NCBI GenBank assembly: GCA_903929035.1
Contig: CAIYTF010000198.1
Coordinates: forward strand, 1 to 48,042
From: an uncultured Ignavibacteriales bacterium
GTDB taxonomy: Bacteria > Bacteroidota > Ignavibacteria > Ignavibacteriales > Ignavibacteriaceae
Length of the DNA: 48,042 bases
Direction of reading: 5' to 3'
Numbering within the stretch: the first letter of the stretch is position 1; every line of letters starts with the position of its first letter. Of the stretch, positions 322 through 18,216 are shown one piece after another. The position numbers and the translations under genes are program-made. A model generated the notes under the pieces. The model was not told the DNA's origin. It saw only the letters and a list, made by a program, of their open reading frames with translations, and made no database searches.

Positions 322-366
322 AATTAGAAATTAGATAAATATTAAATATCCTTATGGAGTTTGTTT

Positions 367-2430
367 ATGCAAAAGGATGGTAAGACGCTCGCGGTTTACT
401 TGAATGAATTGAAAACAGGGCAGCATCATTTTGAAAACGCGTTCGAATCAATCGCGCGTATGATTTTCGATAACCCTGCCGGTATTAAGCCCATAATTGT
501 CAACGGGAAAAACACCTATGATTTTATGCGGTTCCGCACAGGAAAGAAACATATTATCGGGTTATATGATGTAATCAACAATTTTGTTGCTTTCATTAAG
601 GATGCCGCTGAAAACGGGGAAAGTAAAGAGATGGCTTTCGTGCTTGTCGGGGAACCCGGCAACGGTAAAACTTTTTTTGTTGATTATCTTTCCGCTATGT
701 ATCGGGATTTTGTCAGCCTGCCGGAGAATAATAAATATACTTTCAGGTTTAAAATACCTGCATCGGCTGAAGGATACGGAAACATTCGCGAAATTGAATC
801 GCAGACTTATGAAGACCCTGTTGTACTTGCTATGAATCTTCACGAGGACATTGAAAAAAGCAAAGAAGAATTTCTTAAATACGGATTTTCTGAAGTTCAG
901 TTAGAAAAATTCTATAATAACTACCGTTCACTTGGTGCTGATTCTGAATATATACTTAATGATATCAGAGAATACTGCGATGGTGATATCAATGAAATTC
1001 TAAAGTGTATTGAAGTGGTCAGGGTACCGATAAGTTCCACGCTGGGAACTATAACGGGGAAGTATCCTGCAAAAGATAAACTAACAAGTTCCGGTGTTGA
1101 TTTGGTTGGCGAGGAGAGCATTCAACGCCTGCTGCATATCACCAATACCAATAATCCTTTCCGATTTGATTTGCGGCGCGGCGCGCTTGCCAGGGTTGGC
1201 GGAGGCGGTATTCACTTCGCCGATGAAATATTTAAAAATAAAACCGATTTGATGAAAATATACTTAGGTGTCATTCAGAATCGCGTGATTGAAATCGATG
1301 CCTTTAAATGGCCCATAGATACTTTTATAATAGCAACCAGCAATAATACGGATGTGCAGAATTACCGTATGAATGGTGAAGAAAAGCCAATACTTGATAG
1401 ATGCCGCTTTTGCTATGTTTCGCATAATACCAACTACAAACTGCAGGAGCAGCTTACCCGCTATGCGCTTGGTGAAGGCGTGAAGACCACCTTTACCGGT
1501 GAGAAACTGCATTTAGACCCGAATCTTATGTATGTAATGTCGATATTCATCACGCTTACAAGGCTTCCGCGGTTTGATGATAAACTTACCCCCATAGAGA
1601 TGATGAAACTTGCCGCCGGCGAAGTTGCGGGCGAAAAGAGTATGAAAGCTCTCGCTGAAATTGTAGAGGAGCTTGAACACGAGTCTGATACCACGAAACG
1701 GTTTGGGCAAAAAGGGCTCGGGCAGCGTGATCTCGCGCGTATTAATAATATCCTGCGCGGTTTCCCTGAAACTAACGAGGGGCAGTGTATGTTCGCGCTT
1801 GATGTGTTCAAAGCAGGTGAAGACATTATTCTTGATTATGTTCAGGACAATACCGAGCGGGCAAAGTATTTTGAAGATATGAAAATAGCCAAGGGATTAT
1901 ATAGGAAACGTATCAGAACGGAGATGTTTAACGCGTTTATGGATGAACCCGCGGCAATTACAAAAGACGTGATGATGTACGTGAATATGATTGTAGGGAT
2001 GGGGCGTTCTGATCTAGGCAGCGATAAGATTATTACTTATAAGGACCCGCAAACCGGCAAAACAATGCCGATAAAGATAGATGAACGATTTGTGAACGCG
2101 GTTGAGAATGAACTTGAAATGAAAACCTCTGAGCAAAAAGAATCTTTCCGCAGCCAAGTGCGCAAGATATACGCCCAAAAATTGCAGACAGATAAGAATT
2201 ATGATTTTATGGATAATGTCGATTTGGTTAAAGCCGTAACAGATACAAGGCTCAATTCCGATATTGCATCGGCAGGAGGTTTAGTCGGAGCTTTGGCAAA
2301 CCGTACCAATGAAGACAACGAAAAGCTTTATAACCGTATCGTTAACGCGATGACCAATAAGTTAGGATATTGCAAAACTTGTGCTGAAAAAACAATAGAG
2401 TTCTTCTGTACGCAGGATCATCAATCATAA
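367..2430 (+). CDS. prkA: PrkA/YeaG-family AAA+ serine protein kinase
   Basis: Member of the PrkA/YeaG family of AAA+ serine protein kinases linked to starvation and stress responses and, in Bacillus, to sporulation. The P-loop GEPGNGKT lies near residues 95-102, followed by long family-specific segments such as FRFDLRRGALARVGGGGIHF and the acidic motif ADEIFKN. At about 687 residues the length is close to family members. The ATG at 367 is chosen because GGAG at 356-359 is 7 bases upstream; a TTG at 361 would be too close. It is the first gene of an operon with YeaH, SpoVR and a second P-loop protein, the conserved stress module plus one gene. The family assignment is firm; substrates are unknown. 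Confidence 0.93.
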   Translation: MQKDGKTLAVYLNELKTGQHHFENAFESIARMIFDNPAGIKPIIVNGKNTYDFMRFRTGKKHIIGLYDVINNFVAFIKDAAENGESKEMAFVLVGEPGNGKTFFVDYLSAMYRDFVSLPENNKYTFRFKIPASAEGYGNIREIESQTYEDPVVLAMNLHEDIEKSKEEFLKYGFSEVQLEKFYNNYRSLGADSEYILNDIREYCDGDINEILKCIEVVRVPISSTLGTITGKYPAKDKLTSSGVDLVGEESIQRLLHITNTNNPFRFDLRRGALARVGGGGIHFADEIFKNKTDLMKIYLGVIQNRVIEIDAFKWPIDTFIIATSNNTDVQNYRMNGEEKPILDRCRFCYVSHNTNYKLQEQLTRYALGEGVKTTFTGEKLHLDPNLMYVMSIFITLTRLPRFDDKLTPIEMMKLAAGEVAGEKSMKALAEIVEELEHESDTTKRFGQKGLGQRDLARINNILRGFPETNEGQCMFALDVFKAGEDIILDYVQDNTERAKYFEDMKIAKGLYRKRIRTEMFNAFMDEPAAITKDVMMYVNMIVGMGRSDLGSDKIITYKDPQTGKTMPIKIDERFVNAVENELEMKTSEQKESFRSQVRKIYAQKLQTDKNYDFMDNVDLVKAVTDTRLNSDIASAGGLVGALANRTNEDNEKLYNRIVNAMTNKLGYCKTCAEKTIEFFCTQDHQS

Positions 2431-2453
2431 TAATGATGAATTTTGAAGTATGA

Positions 2454-3827
2454 ATGATGAAGCCGAATATGCAAGATAATATAGGCAAACCGGAAGGTAG
2501 CTCGTTTCAGCTTAGCTCAACGACCGATGATAAAGAATCGTCCATAATGAACGATTCTGATATTATGGAAGCACAAAAGAGGTGTATATTAAGACCGTTT
2601 TTGAGCTTTTACGATTACCAAGATATTAATGTAATCACGGGACTATCTCCTTTTGGCTCAGCTACCAGCAGAATATTTGACCTTGACCGCCTGCTCGAAA
2701 AGGATAAACTACGTGAAAAAGACGGATTTCCACGAAAGATAAAATTAGGAAAACTGATAAAGCCGGCTAAAAACGGCACTGATAAAACGATAATCATACC
2801 ATCGGCAACTGAAGAGAAGTTTTATCATTGGATGCGCGAACAAGATGTCGGAGAGGGAAAATCCACCGGCGGCAGCGGTGAAGGTGATGAGGGTGAAGTT
2901 ATTGGTGAACGTCAGCTCCGACCAGATGATGAAGGAGAAGGCGAGGGTGCCGGAAAAGGCGGCGCGGGAGATCACGGAATGGGTGCGGATGCTTATGAAG
3001 TAGGCAGGGTTTTGACAGAACAGTTCGAGCTTCCGAATATAAAAGAAAAGGGGAAGAAAACTTCACTGACCAAATATACTTATGATATGTCCGATAAGAA
3101 CAGGGGACACGGGCAAATCATTGATAAAAAAGCCACTTTAAAACGGGTTGTTAAATCAAACCTCGCGCTCGGAAATATCACAGGGAAGGCTGAAATTGAT
3201 TCGACAAAAATGATTATCACGCCCGGAGACAGGATTTACCGGATTCTTTCACGCGAACGTGATTATGAATCACAGGCTGTCGTGTTTTTTGTCCGCGATT
3301 ATTCAGGTTCTATGATGGGCAAACCTACCGAAGCGATTGTATCCCAGCACGTCTATATCAACAGCTGGTTAGTATTCCAATATAACCGGCAAATTAAAAG
3401 CAGGTTTATCTTGCACGATACCGAAGCGATTGAAGTACCCGACTTTTACACGTATTACAATAAAGCGGTTGCAGGGGGCACTGATGTTGCCTGCGCTTAC
3501 GCGCTAATCAATAAAATTATTGAAGACGAGAATATCGCGAGGAATTACAATGTTTATATATTCCACGGTACGGATGGCGATGACTTTGATTCTTCCGGCA
3601 CTGCCGCCATAAATGAGCTGGTAAAAATGAAGTCCTTTGCCAGCCGTATAGGAATTACTATCGCGGAAAATTCATACAATTCAAAAAATAAAACAGTTGT
3701 CGAAAATTATTTGAGAAAGTCTAAACTATTAGAAACCGCACCGGATGTCTTTCATCTGGATTCATTCAGGGCGGATGAAGCAGATGAAGAGCGAATCATT
3801 AAAAGTATTAAAATTCTCATATCCTGA
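2454..3827 (+). CDS. yeaH: YeaH/DUF444 (UPF0229) family protein with vWA domain
   Basis: UPF0229/DUF444 proteins accompany PrkA in many bacteria; YeaG and YeaH are thought to act together, but the biochemical role is unknown. The C-terminal half has a von Willebrand A fold with the metal-binding motif DYSGSM (residues 279-284), then GGTDVACAY and HGTDGDDFD. A long Gly/Glu/Asp-rich linker lies near residues 135-175 (GEGDEGE and similar), as is usual in the family. The length of 457 residues is normal. It starts 23 bases after the PrkA stop and ends 6 bases before the SpoVR start, so the genes are probably cotranscribed. Confidence 0.92.
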   Translation: MMKPNMQDNIGKPEGSSFQLSSTTDDKESSIMNDSDIMEAQKRCILRPFLSFYDYQDINVITGLSPFGSATSRIFDLDRLLEKDKLREKDGFPRKIKLGKLIKPAKNGTDKTIIIPSATEEKFYHWMREQDVGEGKSTGGSGEGDEGEVIGERQLRPDDEGEGEGAGKGGAGDHGMGADAYEVGRVLTEQFELPNIKEKGKKTSLTKYTYDMSDKNRGHGQIIDKKATLKRVVKSNLALGNITGKAEIDSTKMIITPGDRIYRILSRERDYESQAVVFFVRDYSGSMMGKPTEAIVSQHVYINSWLVFQYNRQIKSRFILHDTEAIEVPDFYTYYNKAVAGGTDVACAYALINKIIEDENIARNYNVYIFHGTDGDDFDSSGTAAINELVKMKSFASRIGITIAENSYNSKNKTVVENYLRKSKLLETAPDVFHLDSFRADEADEERIIKSIKILIS

Positions 3828-3833
3828 AATACT

Positions 3834-5474
3834 ATGGAATTAGTCAGTCAACACATCAAAAGTATAATGGAAGGCTGCAAAGAGCGGGCACTTGACGCTG
3901 GTTTGCGGTTTGACAAAGAAACACTTGAATACATAGTAACCAACACGGATATGCTGGAATTATCACCTAAAAATATGATTCCTACATTATATGATTACTG
4001 GCTGCAGGATATACAGGTTTTGCACGGGAAGGGGGAGTATGAATACTTCCCAAATAACCCTTATGAAACAGTAATCAATACACGTCCGGCAATTTCATTC
4101 TATAACGATAACAATCCGGACTGGCTGAACGTGATGATTTTTTATCACGTGTTAGGACACATAGATTTTTTTCAAAACAATCGTTTTTTTGAAAAGACTT
4201 GGGACTATGATTTCAAGCAGAAAGCGTTGACCGAAAAACGTATGATGGCACGCCTTTATTCTCAAAAAGGAAGGAAAGTTGATTATATAATAGAATTCGC
4301 CCGCGGAATCGATAATCTTTGCGGATATTTTGACTCTTTGTCGGAGGGAGGAAATTTTGACGCGCTTAATCTTCCGCCCAGAGTTGCGTATTACTTTAAT
4401 ATTTTCCTCCAGAGCGTGAAATCCGCCGGTATGAAAATGTTCTTGGAAGAGGTAGAACGCTATGATGCTATTGCCGAGAAGGACGAGAAAATCAAGGAGG
4501 ATTTGTTCTTCAATAAAATTTTATTGACAAACCCCGAGTTTGAAGAATACTTTAATAAATATACCGCTGAACATACTGTTTCCTCGAAAAGAGATTTGCT
4601 GCAGTTTATAATGGACGAGAGCAAAATGATTAATACCGCCGAAAATTCCTGGATGAAAACCGTGATAGAAATTGTTCGCGACACATCCTTATATTTCTCT
4701 CCGCAAATTAGAACAAAAACTATGAATGAAGGCTGGGCGAGTTATTGGCACGAGAAATTGTTTATGCAGGATGACCGTATTAAGGGGCACGAGGTGGCAT
4801 TCGCTCGCATAAACGCTAAAGTTACTTCAGTCAGCCGTGTTGGATTGAATCCCTACGCTATCGGATGGAGGTTGTTTATGTTCATTGAGGAAATGGCAGA
4901 GCAAGGTAAAATATCGTTCGAATATAACCGGATTGATGATATGAAGTCACGTAAAGAATTCGCCAAACCGACAGGAAAAGGCAAAGATTTTATTTTCTCT
5001 GTAAGGGAGAACTTCTGTGACTTCACGTTCCTCAACAGGTTTATTACTCAGGATTTCGTGGATAAGCACAAGTTGATGGTAGTCGGGCAGCAGGTAAATC
5101 AGCAGAGAAACACTATCGAGTATTTTGTGAAAAGCCGTAAAGCCGAAGACTATAAAAGTATGATTATTGACAGCCTGTATCACCCGCCTAAGATTCAATT
5201 CTCTGTAACAGGGGAAAACGTGCTTCATCTTGAACATAGTTTTGAGGGGAAAGAATTATACAGGGAATACATCTCCAATACACTTATTGGAATTGAATTT
5301 TTGTGGGGCAATACCGTGGAATTGGAAACCATTGAACTCGACTTGGATGAAATGAAAAAGCAGGGACAGAAATCGGGAGCGGCACAAAAGGATGTTAAGG
5401 AACAGGTCAAGCCGGTTTACGCTAAAGTGTTATACACCTCGAAATATAAAAAGATTACTAAACGAAAAATATGA
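3834..5474 (+). CDS. spoVR: SpoVR/YcgB family protein
   Basis: Homologue of Bacillus SpoVR (spore cortex formation) and E. coli YcgB. Family hallmarks are visible: FYHVLGHIDFFQNN near residue 103, MNEGWASYWHEKLF near 299, and NPYAIGWRLF near 340. The histidines and glutamates in the first two motifs look like metal ligands, though the activity is not established. The length of 546 residues is typical of the family. In many non-sporulating bacteria it is encoded with PrkA and YeaH, as here, pointing to a general stress role. Gene spacing is 6 bases upstream and 12 bases downstream. Confidence 0.93.
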   Translation: MELVSQHIKSIMEGCKERALDAGLRFDKETLEYIVTNTDMLELSPKNMIPTLYDYWLQDIQVLHGKGEYEYFPNNPYETVINTRPAISFYNDNNPDWLNVMIFYHVLGHIDFFQNNRFFEKTWDYDFKQKALTEKRMMARLYSQKGRKVDYIIEFARGIDNLCGYFDSLSEGGNFDALNLPPRVAYYFNIFLQSVKSAGMKMFLEEVERYDAIAEKDEKIKEDLFFNKILLTNPEFEEYFNKYTAEHTVSSKRDLLQFIMDESKMINTAENSWMKTVIEIVRDTSLYFSPQIRTKTMNEGWASYWHEKLFMQDDRIKGHEVAFARINAKVTSVSRVGLNPYAIGWRLFMFIEEMAEQGKISFEYNRIDDMKSRKEFAKPTGKGKDFIFSVRENFCDFTFLNRFITQDFVDKHKLMVVGQQVNQQRNTIEYFVKSRKAEDYKSMIIDSLYHPPKIQFSVTGENVLHLEHSFEGKELYREYISNTLIGIEFLWGNTVELETIELDLDEMKKQGQKSGAAQKDVKEQVKPVYAKVLYTSKYKKITKRKI

Positions 5475-5486
5475 CAGCAGTATTCT

Positions 5487-7766
5487 ATGGCCGCGAATAA
5501 AAAGATCAACGTTGATAATATATTTACTCTGCTTGATAACCGCATCGGCAAGAAAGAAGAACGAATGGTCATTCCGTTCGAGGATTTCTTAAAAAAAGCT
5601 GTTGAAAGCCCAAATCTTATTTTCCGTAACGTGTTTCAACTGTTTAGCGATATGATTTATCACTATATAACGGAGGATGACGAATACCGCGGCGACCCTG
5701 AAAATATAAATTACAAAACCATTAACTGTGACAGGCTGCTTGTAAATGATACCGATACGCCGTTCTTTGCCGATTTACCGTTAGCTAACCGCCTGTTGCA
5801 TCTGGCGGAAGCATTTAAATCCGGTTCGCAGCAAAATAAAATGTATGTTTTTATCGGACCTCAAGGGAGCGGGAAAAGTACATTTCTGAATAACCTTTTA
5901 TGGCGGCTTCAGGAGTTTACGCATTTGCCGGAAGGTATTATGTACGAGACATTCTGGCAGTTTGACGAGCGTATGCTTTCTCCTGTACTTTCTGATGTAG
6001 TGAAAGCCGCGTTAGATGATTATTATAAAACGAACAAAAAAAATCCGACTAAAGGGCATAGGCAGGTATTGAATGTTCCGTGTCCGAATCACGACCATCC
6101 TATTTTGTTAATTCCGAGAGAAAACCGCAGGGAAATTCTGGAAAATTTGCTCTCCGGCGAAATGAAAATAAAGATATTCAACAAAAAGGAATATGAATGG
6201 ATTTTCAAGGATGACCCGTGTGCTATCTGCCAGTCTTTTTTTCAGACTCTCCAAGAACGTTTAGACTCTCCATCGGCGGTATATAAAGCAATTTATGCAC
6301 GGCGGTATTATTTTAACCGGAGATTTGGAAACGGCATCAGCATCTTCAACCCGGGGGATAGAGAACCGGAAAAATTTGTTTCAACAAATGAAGCGATTCA
6401 GCACGAATTGGATATCCATTTCAGGGATAGTAATATGGTTAAATATATCTTCTCGCGGTTTGCAAAAACCAATAACGGTGTATTTGCCATAATGGATGTT
6501 AAGGGATATAATGAAAAGCGGTTCCTTGACCTGCACGGCATTATCAGCGAGGGAGTGCATAAGATTGAAGACATTGAGGAGAATGTAAATTCGATGTTCA
6601 TCGCGGTGATGAACCCTGAGGACAAAGAAAAGATAAAGATGCACGAGTCTTTCAAGGACCGCATAAAGGAAATCAATGTAAATTATAACCTGAATTATCA
6701 CGAAGAAGTGAAAATATATTTTCATTCTTTCGGCAAGCAGATACGGAACAGGTTTCTTCCCACCGTGTTAGATAACTTCGCGAAAATTATCATCAGTTCA
6801 AGGCTGCAGCTTACTTCAGATGCACTGAAGAGCTGGATTCCCGATCCGGGGAAATACAAGAAATATTGCGATGATAATTTATTGCTTCTAAAATTGAGTA
6901 TCTACAATAATAAAATACCGCGCTGGCTTTCGCAGGAAGATTATAACAGCATCACAAAAACAGTCCGTCGCAAATTTATTTCCGAATCGGAAACCGAGGG
7001 ACGTTCCGGCTTTTCCGGCAGGGAATCTGTGGCAATATTTGATGAGTTTTATAACACTGCTAAGAAAAAATATGCAGAGATCGAGGAAAATAAATCCAAA
7101 GTTCTTATAACAATGGATGACGTTAAAGAATTTTTCAATAAAAATAAACTATATAGCGACCGTGTCCCGAAAGGATTCATTGATTCTATTGTCAGGCTGT
7201 ATGATTATGATATTATTCAGCAGATAAAGGAATCGCTCTTCCACGAAAACGAGGAACGGATAAGCAGGGATATCCAAAATTATCTTTTTGCAGTGAACTA
7301 TGACATAGGCGAAAGTCTGACCAGCCCTTACACCGCCGAGAACATTGATGTTTCTGATAATTTCTTCAATATTGTTGAACAGCACCTGTTTCGGAAAAGC
7401 TTAAACCCATCTGAACGAAAAAAGCACCGTGATGAAATCGCTGCGAAATTTATCTCCAGCCTTCAGGAAATGCAGGCAAGCGGCAATAACATCGCCGAAA
7501 CAGTTGTGTATAAAGACCTGTATGAACTATATATGAAAAACCTTCGCGAAAATATCATCCGCCCGTTTATCAAGTACGCTGCGTTTGAAAGCGCGATCAA
7601 AGTATTCGGTACAGCCAAGTTTGAAGTATATGACGCTCGTACCCGCGATGAAGTGGTGTTCCTTATTAAAAACCTCGTGAGCAAATTCAGCTACACAGAG
7701 GACGGTGCCCGCCAAGTTTGCCTCTACGCGCTGCATAACAAAATTTCGGAGAAGTTTACGGATTGA
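5487..7766 (+). CDS. Second PrkA-like P-loop ATPase with a Cys/His insertion
   Basis: A 759-residue P-loop protein, last gene of the stress operon. The Walker A motif GPQGSGKST is at 124-132 and a Walker B-like strand (FAIMDVKG) is near 345. Large helical regions follow. Between them is an insertion with C199-x2-H202-x-H204 and, 40 residues on, C245-x2-C248, which could bind zinc. Its overall layout and position suggest a distant relative of PrkA, but similarity by eye is weak outside the ATPase core. It may form a mixed ring or partner with the canonical PrkA; that is inference. Calling it simply an AAA-type ATP-binding protein is safe. Confidence 0.75.
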   Translation: MAANKKINVDNIFTLLDNRIGKKEERMVIPFEDFLKKAVESPNLIFRNVFQLFSDMIYHYITEDDEYRGDPENINYKTINCDRLLVNDTDTPFFADLPLANRLLHLAEAFKSGSQQNKMYVFIGPQGSGKSTFLNNLLWRLQEFTHLPEGIMYETFWQFDERMLSPVLSDVVKAALDDYYKTNKKNPTKGHRQVLNVPCPNHDHPILLIPRENRREILENLLSGEMKIKIFNKKEYEWIFKDDPCAICQSFFQTLQERLDSPSAVYKAIYARRYYFNRRFGNGISIFNPGDREPEKFVSTNEAIQHELDIHFRDSNMVKYIFSRFAKTNNGVFAIMDVKGYNEKRFLDLHGIISEGVHKIEDIEENVNSMFIAVMNPEDKEKIKMHESFKDRIKEINVNYNLNYHEEVKIYFHSFGKQIRNRFLPTVLDNFAKIIISSRLQLTSDALKSWIPDPGKYKKYCDDNLLLLKLSIYNNKIPRWLSQEDYNSITKTVRRKFISESETEGRSGFSGRESVAIFDEFYNTAKKKYAEIEENKSKVLITMDDVKEFFNKNKLYSDRVPKGFIDSIVRLYDYDIIQQIKESLFHENEERISRDIQNYLFAVNYDIGESLTSPYTAENIDVSDNFFNIVEQHLFRKSLNPSERKKHRDEIAAKFISSLQEMQASGNNIAETVVYKDLYELYMKNLRENIIRPFIKYAAFESAIKVFGTAKFEVYDARTRDEVVFLIKNLVSKFSYTEDGARQVCLYALHNKISEKFTD

Positions 7767-7777
7767 TTAGGCATTAG

Positions 7778-7793
7778 TTGGAAGTGAATTTGC
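7778..7793 (+). promoter_or_regulatory. Candidate sigma-54 (-24/-12) promoter for the FRG-CARF genes
   Basis: TTGGAAGTGAATTTGC matches the sigma-54 consensus TTGGCAC-N5-TTGC at nine of eleven defined positions, with GG and GC exactly 12 bases apart. Transcription would begin near 7805, 50 bases before the FRG start codon. The downstream operon itself encodes a sigma-54 activator, so autoregulation is plausible. Confidence 0.5.
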
Positions 7794-7854
7794 GCCTCAG
7801 ACATTGGGTTACTTTCTTTTTGGGTATATATCACTTAGTTTGCAGGGACTAAAA

Positions 7855-8794
7855 ATGGATATGATAGTCCCAATAAATAGTCTCAATGACTTTATTTCCG
7901 AGCTCAAAAAAATACTGACAGAAAATGACGATTATTCGGTATATTTCAGAGGACAGAATAATTCATATCTAAAAAAAGAACCCATTTCTGTAACCAGTTT
8001 AATTACAAACCTGAAACCTCCTATTTATCGATATCCTCAATGGATAAAAGCGGAGGATATGATATTCAGGGATGCGATTTTAAGTAACCCTGATGAGTTT
8101 ATTTCTGAGCATTCAACTTTCGAAAAATTAGTCAAGATGCAGCATTATAAGGTACCTACCAGGTTATTGGACCTTACTACTAATGCCTTAATGGCATTGT
8201 ATTTTGCTTGTGAAGAAAGAGAAGATTAAAAAGGAATACCAAAGTGAGGATGGCTTTGTTTATGTTTTTGAAATACCGAATGAATATGTCAAATACTATG
8301 ATAGTGACACAGTTAGTGTAATTTCAAATATTGCAAGAAGACCGTACAATACAAATAGCGGCATGGATTTAACAAGTCTGACCAATTCGGAGAGAAAAGA
8401 CATTGATGCTTTTAACGATAATTTACGAATTAAGCGGTTATTGCATGAGATACAAGACGAAAAACCCTATTTTAAACCTGAAATACTTTTAGAACATCTT
8501 TCTGAAATACTTTGTGTCAAGCCGCTTATGAAAAATCGGCGAATCATTCGACAGGATGGAGCATTCCTTTTATTTGGGATAGGTAAGAAAAAAACCGAGC
8601 CCTCAAAAGTATCGGAAGAATGGGTAAAAAAAATTATAAGAGTTAATAAAAACAAAAAATCAGATATTATGAAAGATTTAGTGCTTATGGGTGTTTCAAA
8701 AGACAAGGTTTATCCTGAATTGGAACAGGTTGGTGAATATTTGAAGGAAAAATATTTGAAAACGAATAATAAGACGGATGCGAAAAATGAATAG
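7855..8794 (+). pseudogene. FRG-domain protein gene interrupted by a single-base frameshift
   Basis: FRG-domain proteins are often found in defence or toxin-like contexts; their activity is not well defined. The first part (7855-8229) carries FRG hallmarks YFRGQNN, then KMQHYKVPTRLLDLTTNALMALYF, and ends at a TAA. The continuation lies one frame later (about 8204-8794) and resumes with GFVYVFEIPNE, the strand expected directly after ALYFA in this family. Removing one base between about 8210 and 8229, for example a T in GATTAAAAAGG, would join the halves into a protein of about 310 residues. The ATG at 7855 is preceded by AGGGA at 7844-7848. It could be a true mutation, a sequencing error or, less likely, programmed frameshifting. 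The gene sits 33 bases before the CARF activator. Confidence 0.7.
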
Positions 8795-8827
8795 ATTTTT
8801 TATATTGTTAGCCGTTTTTGAGGTAAT

Positions 8828-10375
8828 ATGATTCTAATTTCTTTTATTGGGAACCACGATGCTTTTTCAGATGAAAACCAAACTTATGGAGCACTCTTAA
8901 ATATAGCGTTGCAGTATAAAGATTTAATTACGGCTGCCTATATTTTGGTGACTCCCAAAACTGGCAAGGCAAATTACTCCGAGATAGCGTCTCGGAATAT
9001 TGCTGAAATTGGTAAATTAAATCATTCGATTAAATGCGAAATGGTAGAAGTAAAAATATTTAATCCTATAGACTATGATCTTGTTTATCCTCATATGCTG
9101 GATTCTATCACAAAACTATATTCCGATAAGAAAATTGCTATAGAAGATGAAATACTGGTAAATATTACTTCCGGTACCCCAACAATGACTGCCTGTTGGA
9201 TTCTGTTATCTCAATCGGGTATTATAAAAAATGCAAAACTCATTCAATCATTTGAAAAACAGTTTGTCCGTCCAAATGGTCGAACTACACAGGTTGTAAA
9301 TTTTAATATTGATGATTTTCCAAAAATCGAAGCTCTTTCTGCCCTGAAAAGACAATTAACTATTCTTTCACGAAACAATAAAGAACTATCTAAAAGATTA
9401 AATGACGAGCTGTTGGATGCGGAATTACCGGAGTTGTTGGGCAGGTCTAACTCTATAAGAGAAATCAAAGAACAGATTATTACAGGAATAGACCAAAAAA
9501 TCCATATCTTGATAGTTGGTGAAAGAGGAACTGGAAAAGGGGTTGTCGCAAAAGCCATTTGGAAAAGATACCACAAAGAAGGCGAAGAGCAATTAGCTAA
9601 ACTGAATTGCAGTCATTTCACTCCAACTCTTTTAACATCCGAACTTTTTGGCTATACGAAAGGTTCATTTACCGGAGCGGATAAAGAGTATGAAGGTACA
9701 TTAAGTCAGAATAAAGGCAAGATGCTTTTTTTGGATGAAATTGGAAATTTGCCTTTAGAAGGACAACTGATGTTGTTGAGTGTAATAGAAGAAGGAATAT
9801 ATCGTAAGATAGGAGATAATACGAATTCTAATAAGATTGATATTCAGATATTGGCCGCCACAAATAAAGATGTGGATGATCCCGCTGTTTTTGCTCAAGA
9901 CTTAAAAGATCGTTTTCACGAGATAATTCGTCTTCCGCCGTTAAGGGAACGAAAAGATGACATTCCAATATTAATAAATCATTTTATTGGCAAATACTCT
10001 AATACGGAAAATAGTTCTTCTCCTATTATACTCGATGATGAACTAATGCGTAAATTAATAGAGTACAATTGGCCGGGGAACATACGATCTATAGAGAAAT
10101 GTATTGAGCAAATAGCAAGAAGATTTAAATCCGGTGGTATAATCAAATATAAAAATTTACCAAAGATATTTAATTTTGATACAATCAATGATGATAGTGA
10201 AGATATATATCTTCCTTCTTTGCCTCTTTCGATACCACTCCCTGAATACAACGATCAAATTATAGAAAAAGCTAGGTCGGTGGCGGGGAATAATATGTCT
10301 GAAGTTGATAGGCTGTTATGTCAAAAAATTGGCACAGAAAAACAAAGGCGACATCGAAATAAAAATAAAAATTAA
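8828..10375 (+). CDS. Sigma-54 transcriptional activator with RtcR-like CARF sensor domain
   Basis: Bacterial enhancer-binding protein. Residues 1-160 resemble the CARF sensor of RtcR and CRISPR-associated CARF proteins, with a Rossmann start (MILISFIGNHD) and the ligand-loop motif NITSGTPTM at 112-120. Residues about 203-425 form a complete AAA+ sigma-54 interaction domain: Walker A GERGTGKG 231-238, the sigma-54 contact loop GSFTGA 279-284 (GAFTGA variant), Walker B KMLFLDE 298-304, arginine-finger region DRFHE near 362, and sensor II WPGNIR 415-420. The C-terminal tail from about 480 resembles a degenerate Fis-type helix-turn-helix. It may respond to a nucleotide or RNA-end signal and switch on nearby -24/-12 promoters. 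Unlike typical rtcR, no rtcA or rtcB gene is next to it. RBS GAGG lies at 8820-8823. Confidence 0.88.
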   Translation: MILISFIGNHDAFSDENQTYGALLNIALQYKDLITAAYILVTPKTGKANYSEIASRNIAEIGKLNHSIKCEMVEVKIFNPIDYDLVYPHMLDSITKLYSDKKIAIEDEILVNITSGTPTMTACWILLSQSGIIKNAKLIQSFEKQFVRPNGRTTQVVNFNIDDFPKIEALSALKRQLTILSRNNKELSKRLNDELLDAELPELLGRSNSIREIKEQIITGIDQKIHILIVGERGTGKGVVAKAIWKRYHKEGEEQLAKLNCSHFTPTLLTSELFGYTKGSFTGADKEYEGTLSQNKGKMLFLDEIGNLPLEGQLMLLSVIEEGIYRKIGDNTNSNKIDIQILAATNKDVDDPAVFAQDLKDRFHEIIRLPPLRERKDDIPILINHFIGKYSNTENSSSPIILDDELMRKLIEYNWPGNIRSIEKCIEQIARRFKSGGIIKYKNLPKIFNFDTINDDSEDIYLPSLPLSIPLPEYNDQIIEKARSVAGNNMSEVDRLLCQKIGTEKQRRHRNKNKN

Positions 10376-10612: not shown

Positions 10613-11992
10613 ATGCACACTATAAGAATATATAACGACACAATCACTATAGATAGTTTACAAAAACTAAAGTCAAAATTACGCAATGTTTCGTCTAAGG
10701 AAGACATAGACCGCATCATCGAAATATTAAACAAGAATGAGGAAAGAAGTCAAGACTGCGTCAAAATCGGAGATATTTATAAGGATTTCCCTGGTTCTAT
10801 GGTTCTTAACTATTTAATGGCACTCAATTTATATAAATCATTACGAGACAGTCTGCCGACCGATATTGAAAAAATAAATAATACATACAAGAAAAATGGA
10901 GGGAGGAAAGACAGACTGAAAAAATTGGAAATTCTTTATGATAAAAATAATCAAATTTATTCCTACTTAGACAAAAGCTTTGATAAGCCAGATATTTCAT
11001 CTTCTATGTACGATGATTTGTATGATGAGAGTGATGAATATGAATTTCCGCCATATATTTTTAGTTTTGAGGAATTTGAGAAATATGATACTCAAATAAA
11101 TAACCTTATAAAGGATATTGAAATACTAAATATTTATGAGAAAGAAGTTGAAAAGGAAAAGCAAAGCACTGAATCCATAATAAGTAATTTTTTGCATGCT
11201 ATTGGAAATATTATAGACCCAGGCTTCATATATGATGTCCTAAAAAAGATGCAAATGACGGATGTTAAAAAAGATGAAATATATGCGGCTATGGTCCGTG
11301 TCTATACAATGGAGACTAGTATCTTGCTTAGGAGGAACCTTGTTCAACTGAAACTTGAAAAAGGCGAAATATTTATAAAAAAGATTCTTGACGAAAAAAA
11401 AGATAAAACAAAACAGAGGAAAAATGTTTCTCAGATTATATCCTTTGCGATTGAAAGAATCCTTGCCTATACCATTTTTCATTATCGAGATGAAGATTTA
11501 CTCAACCAACTTATGGCGACTCACAATCAATCCCGTGAACTCTTAGGGAAGTCTTTTCTTGATGAAATATTTTTCTGCAAAAAACCAGACGTATTTGATT
11601 GGATGAATAAGAGTTATATCCCGTGCAAGCTTCAAATTGCAGATGTATGGCGAAATATCACTTTTAAAGATAACGGCTATTTATTTACCATGGTGGTCGA
11701 TCATCTTCAAGAATTATTTCATAATGCCATTAAATATAGGGAAGCAAATTCAGATTACTTGATGTCTATAGTATTTGACGAAAGAGTTATTGAATCCGAA
11801 GAATATTTGCAAATTACATTTTCAAATGATAGGCGGTCTAATGAAACTAGGAAGTTATCCAGCGGGCTTGGTTTTATAAACAGTGATTTAAGAAGATTAA
11901 ATGAAAATGATACTGGAGATTATTTAATTATAGAGGAAACTGTAGATAAGTTCTTAGTTAAATTATTATACAAGAAAAGCATATTTGTTTAG
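10613..11992 (+). CDS. Soluble histidine kinase (sensor of a kinase/receiver-HEPN pair)
   Basis: No membrane segment or signal peptide is visible, so this is a cytoplasmic sensor. A mostly helical, charged N-terminal part (1-190) of unknown fold precedes an H-box-like motif FLHAIGN with H195 as the likely phosphate acceptor. The C-terminal ATPase has the N-box ELFHNAIKY (367-375), a D-box-like FSNDR (403-407) and the G-box SGLGFINSD (417-425). The ATPase is compact, so the fold is that of a minimal GHKL kinase. The next gene, a receiver protein, begins 8 bases downstream with its RBS overlapping this stop codon, so the two are almost certainly a pair. What the N-terminal region senses cannot be told. 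Confidence 0.75.
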   Translation: MHTIRIYNDTITIDSLQKLKSKLRNVSSKEDIDRIIEILNKNEERSQDCVKIGDIYKDFPGSMVLNYLMALNLYKSLRDSLPTDIEKINNTYKKNGGRKDRLKKLEILYDKNNQIYSYLDKSFDKPDISSSMYDDLYDESDEYEFPPYIFSFEEFEKYDTQINNLIKDIEILNIYEKEVEKEKQSTESIISNFLHAIGNIIDPGFIYDVLKKMQMTDVKKDEIYAAMVRVYTMETSILLRRNLVQLKLEKGEIFIKKILDEKKDKTKQRKNVSQIISFAIERILAYTIFHYRDEDLLNQLMATHNQSRELLGKSFLDEIFFCKKPDVFDWMNKSYIPCKLQIADVWRNITFKDNGYLFTMVVDHLQELFHNAIKYREANSDYLMSIVFDERVIESEEYLQITFSNDRRSNETRKLSSGLGFINSDLRRLNENDTGDYLIIEETVDKFLVKLLYKKSIFV

Positions 11993-12000
11993 GAGATTAT

Positions 12001-13518
12001 ATGAATATTTTATGGATAGATGATAATTTTAGCCGCATTACAGGAGTGTTACATAAACAGCAAGAGGATATTCTCTATGATGACAACGGGGTGGAATATT
12101 TTGCAAAAGATAGTAATAAATTTTATGTTCCTCGCAATTTTGATAAATTGGATAAAGCATTGCGTAGTTGTAAAGAATTATATGATTTCTTTATTTTAGA
12201 TATTGATTTAACTGATGCAGGTTCAAGTAATGATTCAGAAAGTGGATATGGCGAAATAAGTAAGACTTGGAAAAAATGGTTAGCATCAATCAGTGAAAAG
12301 AAATTAGATGATGTTCAATTCAAAAAAAATGCGGGATTTCACATTTATAATTTCCTTTCAACAAAAGGGGTCCCTAATGATTCTATATTGTTTTATACTG
12401 GAAATCCTGATATTTACGAGCAATTTAAATCTAAATTTGAGTCTTACGAAATTCCTGCACCTATGTCTATAATAGTGCCTCACAAAGATGTGCCTTCACC
12501 AGATACAGATATTGATATCTTTACTGATACAGAAGACACATTAGCCTCTATAATGAAAATAGTAGACCCTATTCCCGATAAACAATCATACCTGAAGTTC
12601 AGGCGAATGGTAATTAATTTATGTGATGATATAATCAGAAATATTAATAAAGCAACTGATGATAATGTATTTGAAAATACTAAACTATTACAAGATAAAT
12701 ATCGATTTAAAATATTTACCGAACAAAATATTGGACAGTATAAAACAGATGATATAAACAATATATTAAACTATGAAACGCTTAATGACGAACTTGATGA
12801 TACCGAGAATGCTTGCCGGAACTGGCTATACGATATTGGAGAATATTTCAAGCGATTAAAGTTAATTCTTCCACTGGATAAAGATAACTTACATGACCAA
12901 GTTCTTTTCGGGCATTTTATTCGTGAATTATCTTCTCCGTTTGATAAAGTCAATCAACGAGAATTTAATAATGATGATTCATTCTATATCTCTTTCGCAA
13001 GCATTCTTAGGAACTGGACTGCCCATAATAGGGTTAAAGGGAAAATAGATATTACTGACTTAGAATTCTTTTTTTACATAGTTATTACGGCTATATCACG
13101 GAAAATACTTCAAAATAGTCTCACGCGTAATGAAATGAAAATAGACGAGAACGCACTTTCAAAATTGGCTATTAAAGAGTATAGTGATTTTATAAATGAA
13201 GTATTTATAAATAACAAGAATATCAAATCTCTGTCTAATTTCACTTATACAGGTATGTTAAAAGCATTTATTAATAATAATGATGTTGGAGTTGAATATT
13301 TTTATAAAGCTTTTTTGAATGAGTGTTTTCCTTACAAACTTTTCCATTATACTAAAAATATACCTGAATATTTTAAATACAAGGAACATTGGACTTCGCA
13401 AATCAGGTTTAATATAAAAATATCAAAAAGTAAGAAAATAGGTAGAATGGAGAAATATTTATTAACCATTGCTGAAAAAAAGATTGGTATAGATAAAACC
13501 GAAATCAATCCCAACTGA
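12001..13518 (+). CDS. Receiver-domain protein with C-terminal HEPN-type RNase motif
   Basis: The first ~165 residues form a receiver domain with a loop insertion (about 71-110): acidic pair D7/D8 in LWIDDN, phosphorylation site D67 in FFILDIDL, switch threonine T133 in FYTGN, and K162 in VPHKD. The C-terminal 300 residues are helical and contain SILRNWTAHNR, with R337-N338-x3-H342 matching the catalytic R-x4-6-H motif of HEPN ribonucleases. No DNA-binding domain is seen, so the output is probably RNA cleavage rather than transcription. RBS AGGAG is 6 bases before the ATG. It pairs with the kinase just upstream. The receiver call is firm; the HEPN call rests on one motif in a helical setting. 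Confidence 0.72.
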   Translation: MNILWIDDNFSRITGVLHKQQEDILYDDNGVEYFAKDSNKFYVPRNFDKLDKALRSCKELYDFFILDIDLTDAGSSNDSESGYGEISKTWKKWLASISEKKLDDVQFKKNAGFHIYNFLSTKGVPNDSILFYTGNPDIYEQFKSKFESYEIPAPMSIIVPHKDVPSPDTDIDIFTDTEDTLASIMKIVDPIPDKQSYLKFRRMVINLCDDIIRNINKATDDNVFENTKLLQDKYRFKIFTEQNIGQYKTDDINNILNYETLNDELDDTENACRNWLYDIGEYFKRLKLILPLDKDNLHDQVLFGHFIRELSSPFDKVNQREFNNDDSFYISFASILRNWTAHNRVKGKIDITDLEFFFYIVITAISRKILQNSLTRNEMKIDENALSKLAIKEYSDFINEVFINNKNIKSLSNFTYTGMLKAFINNNDVGVEYFYKAFLNECFPYKLFHYTKNIPEYFKYKEHWTSQIRFNIKISKSKKIGRMEKYLLTIAEKKIGIDKTEINPN

Positions 13519-13790: not shown

Positions 13791-13903
13791 ATACCCCGTC
13801 CGCTTGCGGCGGGGTAGTTCATTTTATAGCGTGCGTGCGGAAAAACATAATGCTCACAAAGCGTACACCTAATGAACTACCCCGCCGCAAGCGGACGGGG
13901 TAT
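13791..13903. repeat. Perfect 33-bp inverted repeat made of REP-like GC-rich hairpins
   Basis: The arms at 13791-13823 and 13871-13903 are exact reverse complements with a 47-base spacer. Each arm contains its own small hairpin built on CCCCGTCCGCTTGCGGCGGG. The same CCGC(TT/AA)GCGG core occurs at 14392-14401 in the other end of the element. Paired palindromes next to a Y1 transposase recall REP/BIME units mobilised by RAYT-type enzymes. Confidence 0.8.
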
Positions 13904-13915
13904 CTATGAAGGCCC

Positions 13916-14371
13916 TTAGAATAGCATTAATTGTATTGCTTTGTACCATACTTTATATTCCTTTTCTGTTCCTTGCGCTCTCACATATCTTGTGATCGTT
14001 TCTTCATCTCCGAACTTACTCACTGTATTCACGAAATATCCATCACTCCAGAATTCTCCTCCCCACAGTTGCTTCTTTACCTCTGGATGCTGCTTGAATA
14101 TTTCTCTGGCTGTTATACTTTTTATCATTGTTACTATTTTTGTAGGACTATACATTGGAACTGATTGTACTAGAAAATGAACGTGATTTTTATCAGATCC
14201 AATCTCTAAAAAATTTATTTCGTATCGTTTCGCTATCTCTATACAGATTTCTTTTAACGTCTTTTCAACTTCTACGCTAAATACCACACGCCTATATTTT
14301 GAGGGTAGCACAAAATGGTATAGCAGAACAGATACATTATGTGATTTATGTATGTACTCGCTTTTTGTCAT
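13916..14371 (-). CDS. tnpA: IS200/IS605-family Y1 transposase
   Basis: Single-strand DNA transposase of the HUH superfamily. The metal-binding HVH motif is at 63-65 (KNHVHFLVQ) and the likely nucleophile is Y129 in TRYVRAQ. The family segments YHFVLPSKYRRVVF and GEFWSDGYFVNTV are present, and the length of 151 residues matches family members, so the gene looks intact. The ATG at 14371 is preferred to a TTG two codons upstream. No TnpB/IscB partner is present, which places it in the IS200 group. Confidence 0.9.
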   Translation of the reverse strand: MTKSEYIHKSHNVSVLLYHFVLPSKYRRVVFSVEVEKTLKEICIEIAKRYEINFLEIGSDKNHVHFLVQSVPMYSPTKIVTMIKSITAREIFKQHPEVKKQLWGGEFWSDGYFVNTVSKFGDEETITRYVRAQGTEKEYKVWYKAIQLMLF

Positions 14372-14438
14372 GCACAAAGATAATAATTTCGCCGCAAGCG
14401 GCGGGGAATTTACCCTGAGTGATTAAATTCTTGCACCC

Positions 14439-14520: not shown

Positions 14521-15402
14521 TTATCGGCTGAACCATCCGACAATACCTCCTATAATCCCGCCAATCCCAGCACCGACTGGACCGCCTATCTCAAACCCGA
14601 TTACGGCACCGGTCATAACACCGCCGAACACAGCTTTTACGGCTGATTTATTAACGTCCGCCGCTGCGCGTTCGCTAATAAGGGTTTTATCGATATATTT
14701 AACAATGGTAACCTTTTGTTTATCGGGAAGCGCGAAAACAATTTTGTCAACCAGGTCAACCAAATTATATCGTTCCGATGCTGAAACGGGAATAATTTTT
14801 GAAGTCGAGATGTTAAAAACACCCGCGACACTCGACACTTTATTCTCTATGTTCCTCTGCTGGTTGATGCTTGGGAGATGGTTGTCGTTGTCCCATTCTT
14901 TTTCGGGCGCGATCTTATCCGCTTGGTTAAGAACAAACAACACCGGTTTGCCTTTTTCCATATGCGGTTTCACGAAGTTTTGATAAAACTCCTGATCGGT
15001 GGCGTAAGCTCTTTCGTCCGCCTTTAACAGCCATAATACCAGATCGAGTTCCGGTAATATACTTTGATATAGCGCGCCGTATTCTTCGTCTCTTTCTCTG
15101 CTTTCTCCGATTCCGGGTACATCCAATAAAGTGATGCGGCCGTTCTCTCCCAATCCAAGTATCACCTCCTGCGGATTCCTTGTGCAAGCTTCAATATCGG
15201 ATATTTCGCATAGTTTCTCGCCAAAAAGCGCGTTTGCCAAACTTGATTTGCCGGCTCCTGTTTTTCCGAACAATCCCACTTTCGGAATATAAGTCTTAAT
15301 TTCTTGGATATTTGCCAAGATACGTTCCTTTTGACTTTGATTTAATTTTGTCCCGAATTTTTCCAATTGTTCGAAGAAGTTTCTGCTATTAAGATTTTCC
15401 AT
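14521..15402 (-). CDS. YfjP/YeeP-like GTPase with C-terminal glycine zipper
   Basis: GTP-binding protein related to the E. coli prophage GTPases YfjP, YeeP and YkfA. G1 GKTGAGKS is at 46-53, G3 DVPG at 94-97, G4 NQAD at 159-162, with an SAS motif near 205 as G5. The C-terminal 40 residues are glycine-rich and hydrophobic (GGPVGAGIGGIIGGIVGW), the pattern of a membrane-associating glycine zipper. Third gene of a minus-strand operon of three related GTPases and a close paralogue of the first. Cellular role unknown; related genes are common in prophages and accessory islands. Confidence 0.85.
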   Translation of the reverse strand: MENLNSRNFFEQLEKFGTKLNQSQKERILANIQEIKTYIPKVGLFGKTGAGKSSLANALFGEKLCEISDIEACTRNPQEVILGLGENGRITLLDVPGIGESRERDEEYGALYQSILPELDLVLWLLKADERAYATDQEFYQNFVKPHMEKGKPVLFVLNQADKIAPEKEWDNDNHLPSINQQRNIENKVSSVAGVFNISTSKIIPVSASERYNLVDLVDKIVFALPDKQKVTIVKYIDKTLISERAAADVNKSAVKAVFGGVMTGAVIGFEIGGPVGAGIGGIIGGIVGWFSR

Positions 15403-15484
15403 TTTGATATCTTTCTGTTTTTATGATTTTGATTGATTTCGATTATAAACTTTTTACGCCGTGTTTTTTGACGATTACGATGTG

Positions 15485-16213
15485 TCATTCATCGTTAATA
15501 ACATTTGTATCCAAAATGGAGACATTGTAAATTTTCTCTATCAGGCTGTCGATACGCCAATTATCGGACGCGCTAATTTCGATAATGTTGCTTTTAGACA
15601 TTTTAAACAGGGCCGCGATAATATCCTTTTTCAAATCTAAATTACGGTGCTGCTGCCCGCTTGGCTTGAAAGGAAGCATACGATTTATCGGTTCGATTTT
15701 ATCGCAAAAATTGAGTCCGATAATCATTTTGCTCCGATTGATGCTTAGAGATTCTATCGAAGCCAAATCGATGCTGTAATCTCTTTGATCCGCGCGAAGC
15801 ATATAAACTACGCAATCCGATTTCTTCAATATCTCGCTATACAGTTTCATATACTTCTTATCATTACCGAGGCTTTCTCCAATCCCGGGTAAATCGGCAA
15901 TAGAAAAGTAATGATTCTTTTTAAGGTCGATAGAGAAGTCTGCAGCTTGCGCCTGTTTGGTCGTTGACGCGATGGACGAAGTGGCAAATACACCTTTCCC
16001 GATAATCGAATTTAGCGCGCTGGATTTTCCATAGCCGGTCTTCCCGATAAATACGCACTGAATGTCGTAAGATTGAAACGTATCGCGTTCCCAAAGTCTG
16101 TGCTCGAGTTCCATATCCTCATACGAGGTTAATTTTTCCAAAACGGGGTACCTCCGCGATAGCTCGCCCAGAGTCGCCCGATAAACGTTTGTTACGGTAA
16201 GGTCGTTTACCAT
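15485..16213 (-). CDS. Small GTPase, middle gene of the tandem GTPase operon
   Basis: A 242-residue G protein. G1 GKTGYGKS is at 57-64, G3 DLPG at 107-110, and the G4 position reads NFCD (LNFCDKIEP), a departure from N/TKxD that may alter nucleotide specificity. An SAS motif follows near 219. It lacks the glycine zipper of its two neighbours, so it is probably soluble. Its start codon lies one base from the stop of the upstream GTPase, indicating translational coupling. Function unknown; possibly a partner or regulator of the other two. Confidence 0.83.
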   Translation of the reverse strand: MVNDLTVTNVYRATLGELSRRYPVLEKLTSYEDMELEHRLWERDTFQSYDIQCVFIGKTGYGKSSALNSIIGKGVFATSSIASTTKQAQAADFSIDLKKNHYFSIADLPGIGESLGNDKKYMKLYSEILKKSDCVVYMLRADQRDYSIDLASIESLSINRSKMIIGLNFCDKIEPINRMLPFKPSGQQHRNLDLKKDIIAALFKMSKSNIIEISASDNWRIDSLIEKIYNVSILDTNVINDE

Positions 16214-16214
16214 T

Positions 16215-17420
16215 TTATAATTTCTCCCTAAGTGATTTTACCATTGAGATATATGATTTTTTCGCCTTTGCGTAGTGTCCTCTCCTTATTTCTTGGACTA
16301 TGTTGCGTAAGTGATTATTCCATATATCCTCGTATAGTTTGTTGGAATCTTTACGTTTCTCTATCGCATCGACCATTTGCGGAGCAACGGAATAATACTC
16401 GCGAATCAATCTTTCACCTCCTCTTTCTTTCCTCAAAATATTATCTCTGTAAGTGCGCAACAATTGCAGTTCCTCGCACGTGTCGCTTTTCCCAAGAGTT
16501 AGCATCGTAGCCGAAGAAATAAAACATTTGCTTGCCACCCATCCGCCAAAAGCACCGACCGCACCCAATACCGCGGCACCGATGGGTCCTCCGATTAGTC
16601 CGCCAATGGCTGCTCCGATACCGGCTCCCGTGGTGACATATTGGGCAGTGGCTTTTTCTATGTGGCGCGCCGCGACGGTGGAAATGTTTTCCTTTTTCAC
16701 TTTCGCCGCAAAGGTTACCAGCTTTTCGGGCGGCAACGCGAAAATAATTTCTTCCACCAATTTTGGAAGGTTGTATTTCTCTGATGCCGAGACGCATATA
16801 ATACTTGAAGCCTGCGCGTTGAAATATTCGGCAACTATTGCCGTCTTTTCACGTAGATTTGCGGATTGCTTGCTCCCTGGCAATTTCTTCACTTCGTCCC
16901 ACTCACGAAATGGTTCGATTTTATCAGCCTGATTTATCACGAAGAAAAACGGTTTACCTTCCTTCAAGTGCGGTTTGACATTATCAAGATAAAATTTCTG
17001 ATCGACCGTAAACGCGCGATCGTCCGCTTTCAAAACCCACAAAACTAAATCCAGTTCCGGTAATAATTTTGAATAAAGTTCGGAGTACTCAGAGTCCCTT
17101 GTTGAATTTTCTCCCAGCCCGGGGACATCTAATAGAGTTATCCCTTTGGACTTCCCTATTTGCAATAATACTTCCTTCGGTTCTCTCGTGCAGGCAGCAA
17201 TATCGGAAACTTCGCATAACTGTTCGCCGAACAAGGCGTTTACCAGACTCGACTTGCCCACTCCGGTTTTACCGAACAATCCAACCTTAGGCTGATAAGT
17301 TGAGATTTTCTCAATCTGTTCGATTAATTTAGTCTGTTGAGAAGAAGTAAGTTCAATGCCTTCTTTTTTGAAAACTTCAAAAAGATCGGCCGAGATTTTG
17401 GTTTTTATTTTGTCTAACAT
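16215..17420 (-). CDS. YfjP/YeeP-like GTPase with glycine zipper and long C-terminal tail
   Basis: First gene of the GTPase operon and a clear paralogue of the last (shared VGLFGKTGxGKSSLxNALFGE, DVPG and NQAD motifs). After the G domain a glycine zipper (GAGIGAAIGGLIGGPIGA) is followed by about 100 mostly helical, charged residues not found in the shorter paralogue. The frame is open to an ATG at 17540, but the ATG at 17420 fits better: AAAGG lies just upstream, the protein then starts where its paralogue starts, and a sigma-54-like promoter falls inside the longer version. Confidence 0.85.
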   Translation of the reverse strand: MLDKIKTKISADLFEVFKKEGIELTSSQQTKLIEQIEKISTYQPKVGLFGKTGVGKSSLVNALFGEQLCEVSDIAACTREPKEVLLQIGKSKGITLLDVPGLGENSTRDSEYSELYSKLLPELDLVLWVLKADDRAFTVDQKFYLDNVKPHLKEGKPFFFVINQADKIEPFREWDEVKKLPGSKQSANLREKTAIVAEYFNAQASSIICVSASEKYNLPKLVEEIIFALPPEKLVTFAAKVKKENISTVAARHIEKATAQYVTTGAGIGAAIGGLIGGPIGAAVLGAVGAFGGWVASKCFISSATMLTLGKSDTCEELQLLRTYRDNILRKERGGERLIREYYSVAPQMVDAIEKRKDSNKLYEDIWNNHLRNIVQEIRRGHYAKAKKSYISMVKSLREKL

Positions 17421-18216
17421 AAGAGTACCTTTCAAAGATAATTTAACGAGTATTGTTTTTAGCAAAATATAATCCAATTGCGTGCCAATTCGTTTTTTGG
17501 TCAAAAACGCACTTTTATCCGATATAGTGGTTACTTTCATAACTAAATGAAGTTACCAAAATAACTTTCGTGTTCCCCTTGATTTTCGCGGTTGCGAAAT
17601 AATATGCTTCTGCAAGAACATCGAAGCGCGTCATATCTTCTCATTAATATATTTCTTGAGAATAAAATTATTATGAGTGGTGTATCATAGGGCTTATTCC
17701 AAAATAACTTGGTTATAGATATTCGGAAATTGGCGCAATAGTATATGGTCAATCAGGAATATGGAACAGGTTTTCTCGTAACAAGCTCATAGATTGAGGT
17801 GTGGAAATATTTTGAATTTTGTGGAAAAAGCGCATACGTCCAAAAGATATATACTGAAAATGGTAAAAATAATTATTTTTAGAGCAGGCTTGCTAATAGT
17901 TAAAGCCAATAAAATTATATAGTTACAGTAATATAGATGGTAAATATATAAACCATTTCGAGTATAATTTCAACGTAAAATTGCCGCATAAAATGTATGA
18001 GATATGCAGAAAAATGGGAAAAATACGCTGGGAATACTTGTCCAAATAAGACAATAATTCATATTGCAGTTAATTTGGGTCTCCTGAAAAAGTCAAAATA
18101 TCAATATAGAGCAATAAAAATGGGAATTGAATGAAATAATAGCTTTTATTAGTGCAAGGAAAATGGTATTTTGGGTTATAAAAGCGTACACTTAGTGAAA
18201 TTCGAAAAAAAAGAAA
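17421..18216. other. AT-rich gene-free region upstream of the GTPase operon
   Basis: No credible gene is seen in about 800 bases. Besides the sigma-54-like site, the word CCAAAATAACTT occurs twice (17556-17567 and 17699-17710), the first inside a small inverted repeat AAGTTA-N6-TAACTT. The rest, up to the transposase remnant, looks like decayed sequence with frequent stops in all frames. Confidence 0.5.
17461..17477 (-). promoter_or_regulatory. Candidate sigma-54 (-24/-12) promoter for the GTPase operon
   Basis: Read on the minus strand the site is TTGGATTATATTTTGCT: GG and GC are 12 bases apart and the -12 box TTGCT is perfect, although the bases after GG differ from consensus. A second TTGGCACG box lies immediately upstream. 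Transcription would start near 17450, 30 bases before the ATG at 17420. Confidence 0.45.

Follow-up and report, generated by a model that had tools for sequence, protein, structure and literature searches.

Two-component systems nearly always terminate in gene control. DtcA of the Detocs system has TPR repeats, and PglZ, the output of PorX, is a metal-dependent alpha/beta fold. Detocs (DtcA/DtcB/DtcC) is made of three genes, including a 'buffer' DtcB, and the effector best characterised for it is a PNP that degrades ATP (PMC11728103, PMC11249213). In PorX of the PorXY system, the receiver is fused to PglZ, an enzymatic output of the phosphodiesterase/nuclease type (PMC12839542). Receivers are also found in putative effectors of the VMAP/iSTAND2 conflict systems, where they occur without a histidine kinase. 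The HEPN RNases (RiboL-PSP, DUF4145, HEPN-T and Csx1/Csm6) are effectors of conflict systems that carry an RNxxxH motif in a helical domain. The 2013 HEPN survey describes in its main text an active site in which an Rx4-6H motif closes helix 3 and its Arg is followed by a polar N, D or H; an acidic residue upstream assists, helices 2 and 3 are separated by a variable insert, and cleavage is metal-independent and leaves 2',3'-cyclic ends (PMC3710099). The same main text mentions the receiver only as a domain replacing HEPN in one membrane architecture, and no receiver-HEPN fusion appears there (PMC3710099). Our literature search, with most subscription papers outside its scope, found no receiver-HEPN system.

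The window, a stretch of 48,042 nucleotides from an uncultured Ignavibacteriales bacterium, contains a histidine kinase gene followed by a gene for a response regulator with a predicted HEPN output (Table 1). The reading frames, strand, coordinates and 8-base gap first claimed for the two genes were reproduced when re-checked on the window. We judge that the pair belongs among the enzyme-output two-component systems, Detocs- or PorX-like. The parallel with Detocs drawn in the preliminary description held in part. The layout of a TPR/Sel1 kinase with a receiver-effector is shared and, as Detocs is outlined in the reports cited above, both combine a histidine kinase with a response regulator that has a damaging enzyme output (predicted here). 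In contrast to Detocs, no DtcB-like buffer stands beside the window pair and no such third gene is conserved at the other loci; instead of the PNP effector, to which the receiver protein shows no match, there is a helical RNxxxH output in common with the HEPN RNases. The pair is not a Detocs because it has neither a second-receiver buffer gene nor a PNP, and the PADLOC models gave no sequence-level match to it. PorX likewise is a response regulator with an enzymatic output (a predicted RNase here), whereas its alpha/beta PglZ differs from the all-helical, predicted metal-independent output of the pair. Unlike the receivers of VMAP/iSTAND2, with which it shares the placement of a receiver in a putative conflict effector, the receiver-HEPN protein is almost always accompanied by an adjoining cognate kinase.

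Table 1. Features of the kinase/receiver-HEPN locus in the window
Feature	Position	Strand	Basis or remark
Soluble histidine kinase gene, 459 aa	10613..11992	+	ORF call; motif boxes
H-box FLHAIGN, kinase residues 193-199 (H195)	11189..11209	+	H195 invariant, 28 kinases
N-box ELFHNAIK, kinase residues 367-374	11711..11734	+	E367 and N371 invariant
Receiver-HEPN response regulator gene (HEPN predicted), 505 aa	12001..13518	+	ORF call; homologue conservation
Receiver domain, ~residues 1-170 (D7/D8, D67, T133, K162)	12001..12510	+	Conservation; weak PDB profile matches
D67 codon, predicted phosphorylation site	12199..12201	+	Invariant 61/61
All-helical C-terminal half, residues 194-505, predicted HEPN RNase domain	12580..13515	+	RNxxxH; low-confidence models
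RNWTAH, residues 337-342, predicted RNase active site	13009..13026	+	R337/N338/H342 61/61
Hairpin, terminator-like or transposon end	13792..13816	.	Between pair and IS200-type transposase gene
IS200-type transposase gene	13916-14377		Downstream of pair

Searches by tblastn with both window proteins against plasmids and with the receiver protein against phages returned no usable relatives, nor did pattern scans of IMG/VR, an initial GTDB scan and genome searches with single sequences, which included the window's phylum. The first two real relatives, one in a Hydrogenophilales MAG (L017) and one in Ca. Parabeggiatoa (L018), came from a pattern alignment built around the receiver and HEPN motifs, whose artificial variants were never counted as evidence. 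Both relatives have a kinase gene immediately 5' of the receiver gene. Searching with L017 in turn brought up pUP202, a plasmid of Methylomonas sp. UP202 whose annotation calls the two gene products 'hypothetical protein'. Using a four-member profile of the window, L017, L018 and pUP202 proteins, the receiver protein was found in 20 of 43 genomes of the Ca. Parabeggiatoa order, several with 2-3 copies. Profile searches matched 4 of 369 genomes in the class of Ca. Parabeggiatoa and 1 of 395 in the window's phylum, the latter being the window's own copy, which is single in its genome. With a richer profile, the receiver protein was detected in 47 of 301 genomes of the Methylomonas order, presumably Methylococcales, where one genome matches at the pUP202 coordinates. 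Altogether 65 full-length receiver relatives were collected, and the conservation counts were made on the 61 intact ones, which are about 20% identical to the window protein. The four excluded members, L068 and L069 (short, with K at R337), L074 (fused to the kinase) and L078 (damaged N-terminus), all keep H342. The kinase and receiver pair is a widespread two-gene family without a name, missing from the databases searched even though roughly one genome in two of one order and one in six of another carry it. Its patchy distribution, the reduced GC content of the window pair (29-30% versus 34-44% in the remaining window) and the plasmid copy point to horizontal transfer, which fits a conflict or stress module.

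Homologues with the same kinase partner were sought and found at dozens of loci, in bacteria only distantly related to one another. The kinase gene lies directly upstream at 32 of 32 Methylococcales loci and close upstream at about 29 of 33 others (fused in L074). The two genes mostly overlap or are separated by at most 19 bases; 24 of 28 gaps fall between -23 and +11, and many of the 28 pairs overlap by 4 bases, as is usual in translational coupling. For the same 28 pairs, the distance matrices of receivers and kinases correlate with an r of 0.85, a value reached in 0 of 2000 permutations. The pair is conserved and co-inherited, and this correlation, the adjacency and the residue invariance detailed below bear out the earlier claim of a cognate kinase and receiver with complete phosphotransfer residues. 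The kinase gene leads the pair and in many cases runs into the effector gene, an order that would also suit an antitoxin. D67 phosphorylation or kinase binding would then restrain a HEPN toxin and loss of the kinase or of its signal would free it, making the pair a toxin-antitoxin system assembled from two-component parts. In line with such an arrangement, several copies are flanked by toxin-antitoxin-like genes, and L068 and L069, which have no adjoining kinase, have also lost the catalytic Arg (R337 to K) together with D8 (to S), which looks like joint decay. However, L071 is intact at every catalytic residue although its retrieved stretch shows no kinase, and the kinases are large, mostly with sensor-type repeats, beyond the needs of an antitoxin. 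We regard the antitoxin role as rather unlikely.

The kinase motifs given in the preliminary description, H195 in FLHAIGN, the N-box ELFHNAIK (367) and the G-box SGLGF (417), are all present as quoted. H195 was upheld by the conservation check as well, since H195, E367, N371, N405 and G418 are without variation in 28 kinase homologues. In the window kinase, H195 is the predicted phospho-acceptor and N405 and G418 are predicted ATP-lid residues. The G1-box position is usually an Asp in histidine kinases and is apparently occupied here by Asn405. The window kinase matched no Pfam, NCBIfam or PADLOC family, and the HATPase family is absent from the 25 most frequent families matched by the 28 kinases. 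The assignment as a histidine kinase is made because the conserved boxes are present; a HATPase/HisKA profile match is a detection criterion rather than a mechanistic one. Sel1 repeats occur in the N-termini of 14 of the 28 kinases and TPR repeats in others, which by analogy may act as in protein-sensing scaffolds; neither type was detected in the window kinase. By its H-box, the window pair is similar to the subgroup of L018, L067, L075, L077 and L078. Three other candidates (L003, L004 and L006) were rejected as relatives, being generic LytS-type kinases.

The receiver residues D7/D8, D67, T133 and K162 are likewise as first quoted. In the 61 intact homologues, D8 and D67 are invariant, position 7 is always D or E and position 133 always S or T, and W5, D62 and G112 do not vary either. 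A Lys follows the last receiver strand in 60 of 61, and the window K162 is off-register from this column in the alignment; judged by spacing, it is likely the equivalent of the conserved Lys beside a small local insertion. The best PDB matches of the receiver-family profile are mostly response regulators, all weak, and Pfam Response_reg was matched in 3 of 29 members of the receiver-protein alignment (A5) and in L203. The window receiver protein matched no Pfam, NCBIfam or PADLOC family. Domain-profile searches found no DNA-binding domain in it or in the family members, in agreement with the preliminary description.

The C-terminal half contains RNWTAH with R337 and H342 as originally described, and R337, N338 and H342 all passed the conservation test at 61 of 61 intact homologues. 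Shuffles of residues 170-505 produced R-x4-6-H in 47% and R-N-x3-H in 2% of cases. The motif by itself is weak evidence, and RNxxxH goes beyond chance because it is conserved in all 61 homologues. Besides Y197 and R201, which are invariant too, the R/N/H residues are the sole invariant polar trio of the C-terminal half among proteins about 20% identical. RNWxAH satisfies Rx4-6H with a polar residue following the Arg. An acidic residue is found at position 315 in 26 of 29 members, although the larger alignment has gaps there in many sequences, and the segment preceding the motif helix varies in length among homologues. The low-confidence models of the window protein and of the L017 half both put the motif (RNWTSH in L017) at a helix end, with a loop and another helix after it. 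Weighed together with the structural comparisons below, the C-terminal half is quite probably a HEPN RNase.

Alternatively, the C-terminal half could be a non-catalytic helical output that binds RNA or protein, with RNxxxH playing a structural part. The structural comparisons leave room for such an output. AlphaFold gave a pLDDT of 35 for the window receiver protein (3-sequence alignment) and of 46 for the L017 C-terminal half, with about 55-60 in its core, and Foldseek with this poor L017 model found no significant match. In VIA-align, the HEPN toxin 7ae2 ranked 14 with a Z of 4.3, within the noise among unrelated helical proteins. Comparison with the RiboL-PSP HEPN profile placed RNWTAH in register on RNxxAH with a score of 23.0 versus 21.5 for the reversed control, a comparison that is powerless because two known HEPN families score even lower against each other. 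No member of alignment A5 matched the Pfam HEPN models. Against a non-catalytic output, the Arg, Asn and His are invariant at HEPN spacing in proteins this divergent, and we find it quite improbable. As a separate observation, one receiver-HEPN protein of alignment A5 matches the C-terminal model of Cas8a1/Csx13 (E 2e-5 with NCBIfam and 6e-6 with PADLOC).

Taking the two proteins together, we consider it likely that the pair is a cytosolic two-component system with a HEPN endoRNase as its output, controlled by phosphorylation of D67. The joint loss of R337, D8 and the neighbouring kinase in L068 and L069 fits this reading as well. The kinase, which in most relatives bears repeats of the Sel1/TPR type, would sense an internal signal, autophosphorylate on H195 and hand its phosphate on to the receiver at D67. 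Once D67 is phosphorylated, the HEPN domain joined to the receiver, a putative metal-independent endoRNase using R337, N338 and H342, would change in activity, and cleavage of RNA would lead to a growth stop. Both the phosphotransfer from H195 to D67 and the RNase activity of the receiver-HEPN protein are inferred. Activation by phosphorylation seems a more likely sign of control than inhibition. The role of such a system may be a cell-stress or anti-phage shut-down. If true, an RNA-cutting toxin under reversible phosphate control would tie one of the commonest signalling chemistries of bacteria directly to growth arrest, and the invariant residues of the pair are obvious targets for clean knock-out tests.

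The neighbours of the receiver-HEPN loci bear on whether the pair serves defence, and most of them are housekeeping genes. Roughly every second genome of one order has the pair, often as 2-3 copies, and a NUDIX partner is conserved in Methylococcales. Taken with the neighbours, this could mean an ordinary signalling pair whose output controls some housekeeping process of large sulfur bacteria and methanotrophs. The partner is a NUDIX-domain gene of ~560 aa, found within five genes downstream of the pair at 27 of 32 Methylococcales loci (e.g. L194:11518-13221) and in many cases separated from it by a small gene, PIN-type or other; a relative of it lies upstream of the pair in L017 (L017:92-1273). 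At about half of the Methylococcales loci (L194:5957-6520 and 14 others), and also in L019, a gene of ~190 aa with no known family is positioned just 5' of the kinase gene. Neither gene accompanies the window pair. Such a housekeeping role is harder to reconcile with the patchy occurrence within orders and the plasmid-borne copy, with the low GC and IS neighbour of the window pair, and with the defence neighbours at L018 (cmr), L058 (an Eco57I-type R-M gene) and L064 (a Csx1-like CARF gene), and we hold it to be a genuine but somewhat doubtful possibility. A phage-defence role of the pair is plausible. The chances appear evenly balanced that the family represents a widespread, undescribed class of phosphorelay-gated RNases, in which a Sel1/TPR kinase and a receiver-HEPN protein form an intracellular alarm that arrests cells in an anti-phage or RNA-damage response, one lineage adding the ~190-aa protein and the NUDIX hydrolase. 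Enrichment in defence islands was rejected as a defence argument for Methylococcales, where the neighbours include 5 PIN and 4 Uma2 per 100 versus none listed in 100 controls and are otherwise housekeeping genes, the excess being too weak. At the Ca. Parabeggiatoa locus, type III-B cmr CRISPR genes are found directly 3' of the pair (L018:5070-11284).

In the window, an operon-like series at 361-10375 precedes the pair and consists of a PrkA kinase, DUF444, SpoVR, a second PrkA, an FRG-domain gene and an RtcR/PspF-like CARF-AAA-HTH activator. This RtcR-like CARF-sigma54 activator ends the series about 240 bases from the kinase gene, and proximity is the sole link found between the series and the pair. 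No -24/-12 promoter was found 5' of the kinase gene, the best candidates having 3-4 mismatches. RtcR-type regulators respond to RNA ends with 2',3'-cyclic phosphate, the ends expected as the product of a HEPN RNase. The FRG-domain gene (7804-8794; PADLOC PDC-S15 matches) is split into overlapping frames at 7804-8229 and 8204-8794, the result of a frameshift or else of an error in the assembly. On the other side of the pair, three consecutive Era/LeoA-like dynamin-family GTPase genes occupy 14521-17540 on the minus strand, with PADLOC LeoBC/LeoA matches.
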